From Candidatus Bathyarchaeota archaeon BA2 (GTDB taxonomy: Archaea; Thermoproteota; Bathyarchaeia; Bathyarchaeales; Bathyarchaeaceae), in assembly GCA_001399795.1 (NCBI GenBank), contig LIHK01000029.1:1-47560 (forward strand): a DNA stretch of 47,560 nt, given 5' to 3'. Shown piece by piece: positions 37,664 through 46,796 of the stretch. The stretch's first letter is position 1, and each line of letters starts with the position of its first letter. The notes beneath the pieces are model-generated. The model was not told the origin of the DNA. It saw nothing but the letters and a program-made list of their open reading frames with translations, and did no database searches. A program made the position numbers and the translations under genes.

Positions 37664-38683
37664 ATGAGTTTCTTGCCAGGTAAAGTACCGACAGAAGTTT
37701 TGCAAAAAATAGTGTTCAAACATCTGGGAACGAAAAGGAACGACGTTGTTCTCGGGCCCTCAATTGGCGAAGACGCGGCTATAGTCGAAGTTGGAAAAGA
37801 GGTTCTCGCGATAGCAACAGATCCCATAACAGGAGCTGAAGAATGGTTAGGGTGGCTGGCCGTGAACGTCAGCGCAAACGATGTTGCCACATGTGGAGTT
37901 CAACCTCGCTGGTTCACTTCTTGTATACTCTTGCCCAAAGGTTCTAGGGAGGAACTTGTTGAAAAAATTTGTAGGCAGATGGATAAAGCTGCCCAGCAAT
38001 TGAATGTAGCCATAATTGGGGGTCACTGTGAAATTACGCCGGGTCTAGAACATCCCATAGTGACCGGCTGCTCCATAGGCATCGCAGAAAATGGAAAATA
38101 CGTGACTTCAAATGGAGCAAAAGCGGGAAACATGATTATTCTGACTAAAGGAACGGGAATAGAAGGAACCGCCATCTTAGCTTCGGACAGAAGGAAAGAA
38201 CTCCTCAAAGTTTTTGATGAAAGTTTTCTTATAAAAGCTGAGAATTTCTTTACAAAAATTAGTGTGGTCAAGGACGCCCTCACTGCTTTCCAAACTGGAG
38301 GAGTCTTAGCAATGCACGATCCCACCGAGGGAGGAGTGGCTGGCGGGTTACATGAGCTAGCCGACGCCTCAAACGTTGGTTTCCAAGTATACGAAGAGAA
38401 AATTTTGGTTTCTGAGGAGACAAGAAAAATATGCGCGTATTTTGAAATAGGTCCTCTTCAACTCATCAGTTCAGGGTCCCTTCTCATAGTGGCTGAGAAA
38501 GGAAAAACAGAAGAAATCGTAAGTAGGTTGTCGCAAAATGGTGTTCCTGCATCGGTGATTGGCGAAGTGACAGAACCTAAACTGGGAAGAAAAATAGTTT
38601 CAAAAACTGGAGAAAAGGTTGAACTAGTTAGACCCATTAGTGACCATCTTTGGACAGCGCTTGCAAAGCGATTTGAAAAATAA
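37664..38683 (+). CDS. AIR synthase/HypE-like family protein
   Basis: 339 residues. The N-terminal PurM domain has GPSIGEDAAIVEVGKEVLAI, then WLAVNVSANDVATCG; the C-terminal half has MHDPTEGGVAGGLHELADAS and SSGSLLIVAEKG. It lacks the C-terminal Pro-Arg-Ile-Cys of HypE, so it is not a hydrogenase maturation protein. Archaeal relatives of this kind are annotated only as AIR-synthase related, with ATP-dependent chemistry expected. A TATA-like CTCTAAATAA lies about 25 nt upstream. Confidence 0.82.
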   Translation: MSFLPGKVPTEVLQKIVFKHLGTKRNDVVLGPSIGEDAAIVEVGKEVLAIATDPITGAEEWLGWLAVNVSANDVATCGVQPRWFTSCILLPKGSREELVEKICRQMDKAAQQLNVAIIGGHCEITPGLEHPIVTGCSIGIAENGKYVTSNGAKAGNMIILTKGTGIEGTAILASDRRKELLKVFDESFLIKAENFFTKISVVKDALTAFQTGGVLAMHDPTEGGVAGGLHELADASNVGFQVYEEKILVSEETRKICAYFEIGPLQLISSGSLLIVAEKGKTEEIVSRLSQNGVPASVIGEVTEPKLGRKIVSKTGEKVELVRPISDHLWTALAKRFEK

Positions 38684-38731: not shown

Positions 38732-39475
38732 TTAGAGTCTGAGAGATGGGAGAGAACGCCACACTGCTCTCACTATGGGAATTGAAACTATAAGGCCTAC
38801 AGTCATTTGACCAATATTCACTGGGATTTCTGCTATCGCCGCCACACCAAGGAAGAATTGTTCGTAGAGAAAATAACCAGTAACCATCACTAAACCCCCA
38901 ACGAGAATTGTAAGGACAAGCCAACCGAATTCAGATTCAAAAATAAATCCCATCAAGGTGATTAACAAGATAACTAAAGCCCCCAACGAATACCAAAATT
39001 CTGGTGGAACAAACAAGATTAAGTTGGGATTCCCAGGTGGAGGGATGCCAAGATAAAGCTCTACCGAGCCGCTATAGTAAAGGGAACCGATACTGCCTAA
39101 CAAAATTCCAGCGATCAAACCAGCAACGAACGTAAAGGCTTTCCATTGAATTTTAGAACTAAACCTAAGTCTTTTATGACCGAGGATGCCAACGATTCCC
39201 CCTTCGCATGCTTTTATGAGAAGAGTAGCTGGCGCATAATGTGAGTAGCCTAAAAAGATATCTGCAAACATGGAGCCAACTCCCCCAGCGAAAGCGCCGA
39301 TGAGTGGCCCGAAAAGCAGAGCTGTAGTATACACCATGGTTTCACCGATGTTAAAGAAACCCTTTGTGTGGGGAACATAAATGGAAAAAACCATGGTAGC
39401 TACACATACCAGCGATGTAAAAATAGCCGTAATGGCTAATCGAATAGTTATTGATGCAAAGACTTTTTGAGACAT
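38732..39475 (-). CDS. ECF transporter S component-like membrane protein
   Basis: 247 residues with about six membrane segments. The N-terminal part (TIRLAITAIFTSLVCVATM, then GFFNIGETMVYTTALLFGPL, GAFAGGVGSMFADIFLGY) follows the S-component pattern of vitamin transporters; the middle to end is less typical and longer. The substrate cannot be read. No ATPase/T component lies nearby. It is on the strand of, and 68 nt downstream from, the threonine-synthase-like gene; a TTTTAATA box at about 39510-39520 may give it its own promoter. Confidence 0.72.
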   Translation of the reverse strand: MSQKVFASITIRLAITAIFTSLVCVATMVFSIYVPHTKGFFNIGETMVYTTALLFGPLIGAFAGGVGSMFADIFLGYSHYAPATLLIKACEGGIVGILGHKRLRFSSKIQWKAFTFVAGLIAGILLGSIGSLYYSGSVELYLGIPPPGNPNLILFVPPEFWYSLGALVILLITLMGFIFESEFGWLVLTILVGGLVMVTGYFLYEQFFLGVAAIAEIPVNIGQMTVGLIVSIPIVRAVWRSLPSLRL

Positions 39476-39543
39476 CTAGAGTCACTAGTATAGTTACAAC
39501 TTTACTATTAAAACCCCCTCACATTTAAAACTTTTCATAGAAA

Positions 39544-40947
39544 TCAAAGTAGCAATTTCAACTCATCAGCAGCATGCAAAACTCTTTTTCCACGCTTAGT
39601 AACTTTGAAGTATTTTCGTCCCTCCTTTTTGTAAGAGACTACTAATCCTCTCTTGGAGAGATTGTTTAGATGTTGATAGATGGCGGCTCTGGTCATGGTT
39701 TTTCCGAATTTTTTCCACAAGTCGTAGCCATAAACGTCCTTTTGGCTTAAGATTCGCAGAATCTTTTCTTTAGTGCTTAACTCCAAGCCGACCACAGCGG
39801 TTTTTCTTTTTTTCGCCAAGGCTTGAAGCACATCTGTTGCCTTTAAGCCACTTCCTGTTATGAGACACACAACTTTGTCTTCCTCAGCTATTACGCCTTG
39901 GCTAACCAGTTTTTTGAGGGCTGCTATTGCAGCTGAGCTAGCTGGCTCTGCAAAGATTCCTTCAAGCCTAGCGATTTCCTGTTCAGCAGTGAAGATTTCG
40001 GAGTCCAGCACCGTGGTAGCGACGCCTCCAGATTCTTTTATTGCTTGGAGGGCCCACCTTCCATTCAAGGGATTACCCACGAGAATTCCTAAAGCATGAG
40101 TAGACGGCTTCGGAATGGCAACTGGTTTGGATTCGTTTTTCAAGTGCGCCTCAACTATTGATGCGCATCCGCTAGCTTGGACGCCAACCATCCTTGGCAA
40201 CGCGTCAACATTTCCTAGGGCTTGCAGTTCCTTGAAGCCTTTCCAAATAGAGTAGATGGTTCCACCGCTTCCCATCGAAACGACAAACCAGTCAGGAACT
40301 CCAAACTGCTCCGCCACTTCATAAGCAATGGTTTTCTGGGCTTCAATCACTAGGGGGTTGAATTCAGCCGTGGCTTGATACCAACCCGTTTCCTTCGTCA
40401 AGGATTCCGCTCGCTTGTTGGTTTCGTCAACGATCTCTCCATGTTCCTCAATGACTGCATCATAGATTAACATCTGAGCCAGCTTACCCATATCAACCGC
40501 TTCTGGAACAATAACGTGGCAGTTGAGGCCAGATTTGGCGCAGTAGGCAGCTAGAGAGGCTCCCATGTTTCCGTTTGAGGCGCAAATTACAGTGCCGTAT
40601 TTCAAGTCCAAGGCGTTTGAAACCATCAGCGCCGCGCTTCTATCTCTGAAAGAGTTCGTTGGGTTCCGAGTTTCATCTTTAAGGTACACGACGTTTAAGC
40701 CGATTTTTTTGGCGAGACGCCCAGCCTTATGCAGAGGAGTGCCGCCCTCTCCCATCGTCACCGTGCTTCTGACTTCTGGCAGCAACGGTTTAAACTTCCA
40801 AAAAGTGATAGGTCCCGTGAACTCTATTTCTTTTAACCGTTCAAAATCGTAAGTATAGCCTAGAAGACCCCCACACTTCTCGCATTTATATCGAGGAGGG
40901 TACAGCGCAAAACTAGCCGAACACCCACTACACTGCAGAACAGTCAT
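39544..40947 (-). CDS. Threonine-synthase-like PLP-fold protein lacking the PLP lysine, fused to a winged helix
   Basis: 467 residues from ATG 40947. A zinc-ribbon-like start (CSGCS, CEKCG) precedes a fold-type II PLP domain: TMGEGGTPLHKAG, NPTNSFRDRSAALMV, the phosphate loop CASNGNMGAS, SMGSGGTIYSIW, FAEPASSAAIAAL and LITGSGLKATD. In true threonine synthases the motif is SFKDR and its Lys holds PLP; here the codon is AGA (Arg). Residues about 390-467 form a winged helix (GYDLWKKFGKTMTRAAIYQH, LNNLSKRGLVVSYKKEGRKY). The gene may encode a regulator or a non-Schiff-base enzyme rather than threonine synthase. The upstream frame to 41067 is unlike the family. Confidence 0.85.
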   Translation of the reverse strand: MTVLQCSGCSASFALYPPRYKCEKCGGLLGYTYDFERLKEIEFTGPITFWKFKPLLPEVRSTVTMGEGGTPLHKAGRLAKKIGLNVVYLKDETRNPTNSFRDRSAALMVSNALDLKYGTVICASNGNMGASLAAYCAKSGLNCHVIVPEAVDMGKLAQMLIYDAVIEEHGEIVDETNKRAESLTKETGWYQATAEFNPLVIEAQKTIAYEVAEQFGVPDWFVVSMGSGGTIYSIWKGFKELQALGNVDALPRMVGVQASGCASIVEAHLKNESKPVAIPKPSTHALGILVGNPLNGRWALQAIKESGGVATTVLDSEIFTAEQEIARLEGIFAEPASSAAIAALKKLVSQGVIAEEDKVVCLITGSGLKATDVLQALAKKRKTAVVGLELSTKEKILRILSQKDVYGYDLWKKFGKTMTRAAIYQHLNNLSKRGLVVSYKKEGRKYFKVTKRGKRVLHAADELKLLL

Positions 40948-46716: not shown

Positions 46717-46796
46717 GTCGCCTCACATCCACATGTCCATCAGCTTGGTATATAAGTTAAGGCTTCCTTAATAATTTGCTCCTATGATTGGATTTT

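Follow-up and report, generated by a model that had tools for sequence, protein, structure and literature searches.

A winged-helix protein derived from threonine synthase as a probable archaeal regulator of vitamin B6 uptake and synthesis

In bacteria, the MocR/PdxR regulators combine a winged helix (wHTH) with a sensor domain derived from a PLP enzyme and control pdxST, pdxK and pdxU (PMC5320631). The sensor of MocR proteins is a fold-type I aminotransferase, the wHTH is of the GntR type and sits at the amino-terminus, and the group is reported to be absent from Archaea (PMC5320631). A precedent for enzyme-derived vitamin regulators is the archaeal RbkR, a riboflavin kinase joined to an HTH domain that is both regulator and enzyme (PMC8305020). 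The transporters for vitamin B6 are unidentified in most prokaryotes; within PF07155 those for B6 are PdxU and HmpT (PMC9997740), and pyridoxamine has been shown to be the substrate of HmpT (PMC4860826).

Here we describe a locus in a stretch of 47,560 nucleotides (the window) from Candidatus Bathyarchaeota archaeon BA2, an archaeal bin of 1.46 Mb that is 92.5% complete. Like MocR/PdxR, the protein encoded there fuses a wHTH to a sensor derived from a PLP enzyme, and its regulon, as predicted from gene linkage and operator sites, is one of B6 synthesis and transport. Unlike MocR/PdxR it is built on a fold-type II threonine synthase, carries a PadR-type wHTH at its carboxy-terminus and belongs to a family that usually lacks the Schiff-base lysine. 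From its sequence it is best read as functionally similar to PdxR, and not as a MocR by family. Like RbkR it would be an archaeal vitamin regulator made from an enzyme of cofactor metabolism and an HTH domain, although the enzyme fold and the vitamin are different ones and RbkR retains its activity. We found no description of a threonine synthase/HTH regulator family in the searchable literature, which omits subscription journals and preprints.

A threonine synthase fold joined to a winged helix

The gene and its features are as follows.

39544..40947 (-), putative regulator gene of 467 aa plus stop, in a family annotated as 'threonine synthase' (NF004170), with zinc ribbon, fold-type II PLP domain and PadR-type winged helix
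40870..40932 (-), amino-terminal zinc ribbon, Cys6/Cys9/Cys22/Cys25, common to canonical archaeal ThrC
39853..40761 (-), PALP domain with threonine synthase fold, residues 63-365 (PF00291, E 7e-80)
39550..39774 (-), winged helix, residues 392-466 (AlphaFold2 model; Pfam PadR PF03551 at 396-458, E 4e-12)
40645..40647 (-), AGA codon of Arg101 at the PLP-binding lysine position, motif NPTNSFRDR; conserved among relatives with the wHTH, while those lacking it have Lys
40258..40272 (-), GSGGT loop for the PLP phosphate at residues 226-230, aligned with GNAGN of canonical ThrC
40348..40350 (-), Val200, the site of an Arg conserved in canonical ThrC (NPxRxEGQK; alignment)

The preliminary description, made from the letters of the sequence, had seen a threonine synthase fold with a C-terminal winged helix, in which the lysine motif SFKDR reads SFRDR through an AGA codon. 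The architecture was confirmed by PF00291, PF03551, an AlphaFold2 model and Foldseek, where the top matches of the large domain are threonine synthases, and the codon was confirmed at Arg101. The model (58 input sequences; mean pLDDT 91.8, pTM 0.82) places a disordered or flexible linker at residues 379-389 ahead of a wHTH formed by helices 392-402, 407-413 and 420-432, strands 436-441 and 444-449 and a last helix 451-466. In profile searches this wHTH scores 46.3 bits against a PadR Pfam cut-off of 27, which six of ten other diverse members also exceed.

With canonical ThrC (TIGR00260, PRK08197) the protein shares the fold, the zinc ribbon and most PLP-site motifs, and its TIGR00260 score of 209.6 bits lies above the cut-off of 167.1, a match that shows ancestry and makes no statement on activity. 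Unlike ThrC it lacks both the lysine and a conserved arginine, carries a wHTH and stands in a B6 gene context; judged by these motifs, it is a threonine synthase by descent that fails in two defining residues. The NCBIfam model NF004170 (PRK05638), the name of which implies an enzyme, runs across the wHTH and has the same full-length architecture as the window protein, whose score of 396.7 bits falls short of the cut-off of 421. Its top scorers, at about 700 bits, are Arg-bearing fusions from complete genomes. Automatic annotation through this model probably spreads a wrong function, 'threonine synthase'.

SFRDR or SYRDR is found in nearly all Thermoproteota relatives of the window branch, to identities as low as about 32%, and lysine occupies the PLP site in all homologues that lack a wHTH (about 110 homologous ORFs in the loci examined). 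Because the same motif recurs in relatives and all homologues without a wHTH carry lysine, Arg101 is real and not a sequencing error. Among the fused proteins, arginine is present in members from Thermoproteota and some from Asgard, while Leu, Ile, Met, Thr, Val or Ala occupies the site in a second fused branch that spans both phyla. The possibility raised earlier, that all relatives with the fusion carry lysine, is not what we observed; most fused proteins have another residue, and lysine is confined to Lokiarchaeal-type members and two from Bathyarchaeia.

The arginine of NPxRxEGQK, the substrate-phosphate arginine of the T. thermophilus structure, is gone from all wHTH-fused members, the Lys-bearing ones included. 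The GN loop, the glycine-rich phosphate loop (GSGGT for GNAGN) and TGxGLK are largely kept. As the motifs that contact PLP are retained and the ThrC arginine is lost, the pocket looks preserved for PLP and unfit for threonine synthesis. In a tree built without the wHTH columns all 56 fused proteins form a single clade (99/88), in which the changes from lysine to other residues need three steps; the tree gives no direction for them. Gain of the wHTH and loss of the lysine go together, and the loss is not universal, the exceptions being the Lokiarchaeal and two Bathyarchaeal proteins.

Linkage to vitamin B6 genes and an operator that follows the regulator

Two further features lie next to the regulator gene.

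38732..39475 (-), ECF transporter S component (ecfS), PF07155 (PdxU/HmpT family, profile search), predicted B6 importer and target gene
39486..39507 (-), candidate operator TAGTAAAGTTGTAACTATACTA, 18/22 palindromic and scoring 24.3 bits, 11 bp upstream of the start codon of ecfS

In our first sample an ECF S component stood next to or behind the regulator in 31 of 46 loci. With later loci added, it lay beside the regulator or no more than two genes away in 41 of 63 loci, pdxS-pdxT was found in three and a B6 gene of either kind in 44, with about 19 having none beside the regulator; six of the later loci were chosen for adjacency already visible in their coordinates, and 31/46 is the less biased figure. 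The pdxS and pdxT genes, which score above the cut-offs of their NCBIfam models, are divergent from the regulator in one genome (G154) and in an Asgard genome (G418), and share its operon in another Asgard genome (G310). In complete Thermoproteota genomes the regulator, the S component, an ABC ATPase and an EcfT-like protein form a single run or operon. Loci of the second branch have the S component in divergent orientation to the regulator, with 20-140 bp between the starts where the start calls are clean. Some genomes of the same order hold the S component with no detected regulator, which makes the regulator dispensable.

A group of Arg-type fusions (L125-L131, L051 and L200) adjoins MCM and a GINS-like gene in place of B6 genes, their targets lying elsewhere; for G031 the operator is at an ecfS gene on a different contig. 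The window also contains a gene of the AIR-synthase fold (37664-38683, (+)), inverted relative to ecfS; in many Bathyarchaeia (L141-L149, L155, L202) this gene follows ecfS on the same strand. Its product scores between HypE and ThiL, under both cut-offs, and may be a B6-salvage kinase.

The window S component scores 96.7 bits against PF07155 (cut-off 26.7), and the only PDB match of its family profile is 4hzu_S, HmpT/PdxU2 (E 7e-22), which places the target gene in the same Pfam family as the PdxU/HmpT S component (4HZU). Two ligand residues of HmpT, Asn140 and Gln143, align with the invariant Asn220 and Gln223 of the archaeal protein. The archaeal S component differs from HmpT in having an invariant Lys88 in place of His84 and, in many archaea, a longer form with an extra insert. 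Given the exchange of His84 for lysine, the transported vitamer may differ from that of HmpT.

Within the same order, absence of PdxS was insufficient alone to split regulator carriers from non-carriers, and as this comparison did not discriminate we adopted a survey of 161 Thermoproteota genomes. PdxS alone was present in 72, the ECF S component alone in 70, both in seven and neither in 12, a near-exclusion with p=1.9e-24 by a statistic that ignores phylogeny; inside one family (f17) the two genes are mutually exclusive. The window's own genome has ThiC and no PdxS, and with ThiC present the import of hydroxymethylpyrimidine would be unneeded. The best reading of these comparisons is that the S component is a B6 importer, as predicted from its family.

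The operator is a 22-bp palindrome with the core AAGTTNNAACTT, and the dyad TATATAAG-N6-CTTATATA was found in divergent intergenic regions between the regulator and ecfS or pdxS. We built a symmetric weight matrix from 26 sites and scanned 971,632 bases at a threshold of 15.3 bits. All 53 sites scoring at least this value lie at the starts of ecfS, pdxS or the regulator, and one Markov shuffle gave two. The matrix was trained on sites of the regulator family; about half of the 53 matches (L148, L145, L152, L202, L141, L142, L144 and L208 among them) and the non-carrier control described below lie outside the training set.

The operator follows the regulator gene. In loci of the same order that have the regulator it is present at ecfS in 20 of 20 (20.6-26.9 bits), as against none of 20 genomes of that order with ecfS and no detected regulator, where the best score near a start was 5.9 bits (p=1.5e-11). 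It is also found where ecfS and the regulator are on different contigs, at ecfS (e.g. G042, G026 and G031), and at pdxS on separate contigs (G050 and, more weakly, G149). In the window the operator would lie at the TATA-box position of a leaderless ecfS transcript.

Several loci (L153, L021, L130, L150, L154, L208 and L133) have paired operators 18-20 bp apart, an arrangement that suggests cooperative or overlapping dimers. One genome (G136) encodes both an Arg-type (L145) and an Ile-type (L201) paralogue. The Ile-type gene is not adjacent to ecfS, and its own start has a dyad that resembles the operator. In the Lokiarchaeal loci L132-L134, L137 and L054/L136, which encode Lys-bearing fusions, ecfS lies nearby in convergent orientation and has strong operators. 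A weaker dyad in the window, TATATAAGTTAAGGCTTCCTTA (46749-46770, 12.5 bits), precedes a 136-aa ORF and is near background level. We also considered TTTACTAANNRACCGATAAA, upstream of the regulator, as an operator and rejected it; the closest relatives share this block, but the reversed pattern does equally well elsewhere. Its matches at 0-1 mismatch are only the regulator promoter in G000, G057 and G148, and it is probably the regulator gene's own promoter.

Weighing a B6 switch against its alternatives

Taken on sequence evidence, it is very probable that the protein is a one-component regulator of archaeal B6 acquisition, derived from threonine synthase, that senses PLP and binds operators at ecfS and pdxS. 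The fold-type II domain would act as the sensor, and its ligand would most likely be PLP or an adduct of PLP held without the catalytic lysine. PLP would be bound non-covalently, perhaps as the free aldehyde or as an amino-acid adduct, and Arg101 might form a pair with either the cofactor or the carboxylate of the adduct. The Leu and Ile variants would be unable to form such a pair, and the exact ligands may for this reason differ among the branches. It is possible that the Lys-bearing Lokiarchaeal fusions sense PLP through a Schiff base. A dimer of the C-terminal PadR-type wHTH would bind the palindrome at the adjacent ecfS promoter; elsewhere the bound site would be the one at pdxS or that at the regulator gene itself. 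When PLP is sufficient, the ecfS or pdxST promoter would be blocked and B6 uptake or synthesis repressed; repression is the likely mode because the operator covers the TATA position.

Ancestry suggests another reading, in which the ligand of the protein is threonine, homoserine phosphate or an amino acid related to them and the gene under its control is thrC. The window's own genome does have hom, thrB and thrC: the second, canonical thrC that the preliminary description had raised is present as a separate gene (SFKDR) beside the genes for homoserine dehydrogenase (hom) and a ThrB-like kinase. In five loci of one Bathyarchaeial family (L150, L153, L154, L156 and L021) canonical thrC is moreover the divergent neighbour of the regulator. 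Alignment of the thrC/regulator intergenic regions, however, gave no shared site, TTCAGTTAA-N7-TTAACTGAA occurring in a single genome, and a search of the thrC side in the five loci found no operator, which lies at ecfS instead. Homoserine dehydrogenase (PF00742) is missing from 13 of the 19 fusion-bearing genomes tested, single-contig Thermoproteota included, and three carriers that are 90-99% complete (G057, G148 and G172) have no other ThrC. With the ThrC substrate arginine lost as well, we rejected a threonine-pathway regulator, which we regard as highly improbable. The preliminary description had proposed a MocR/PdxR-like regulator on a fold-type II protein, sensing PLP or threonine compounds. 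The regulator and PLP parts appear well supported by the joint conservation of fusion and lysine loss, the B6 linkage and an operator that tracks the gene, and the threonine part is unsupported.

That the protein is a genuine if unusual threonine synthase, or another PLP enzyme working without the lysine, with the wHTH as a regulatory side domain, would agree with the name of NF004170, the match of the fold to ThrC and the lysine kept in Lokiarchaeal members. Such an enzyme would have to tolerate seven different residues in place of lysine, Leu, Ile, Val and Ala among them, and the loss of the conserved arginine from all fused members; the gene also occurs where the threonine pathway is absent, and the window's own genome already has a canonical ThrC. 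We consider this reading extremely improbable. It is very unlikely, too, that the same ECF transporter is regulated but that ligand and transported vitamin are something other than B6, such as HMP, a precursor of thiamine, or an amino acid. HmpT was originally named for HMP, its His84 is a lysine in the archaeal S component, ThiC is absent from half of 38 carrier genomes, and the AIR-synthase-fold gene behind ecfS in many Bathyarchaeia is kinase-like. Against these points stand the mutual exclusion of PdxS and ECF-S, the pdxST genes beside the regulator in three genomes with the operator at pdxS in more, and the presence of ThiC in the PdxS-less genome of the window.

The regulation of B6 acquisition is our preferred reading. 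On this sequence evidence, the gene that goes by the name 'threonine synthase' in many archaea would most likely encode a DNA-binding switch for B6 and no enzyme. It would have arisen from threonine synthase by a single duplication and fusion. We think it likely that the proteins form a new family of B6 regulators in Thermoproteota and Asgard archaea, with one origin from threonine synthase, that senses PLP in a fold-type II pocket (lysine replaced by arginine or a small hydrophobic residue, and the Lokiarchaeal Lys branch maybe covalent) and represses ECF B6 import and PdxST via a shared 22-bp operator. This would be a second independent origin of B6 regulators derived from PLP enzymes, the regulatory use of such an enzyme having been invented again on an unrelated fold. 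The locus offers a putative archaeal B6 regulator together with the operator and the predicted importer that belong to it, and the reading would explain a family misnamed 'threonine synthase' by automatic annotation. The natural series of residues at the lysine site (K, R, L, I, M, T, V and A) may also serve for the study of how an enzyme becomes a sensor.
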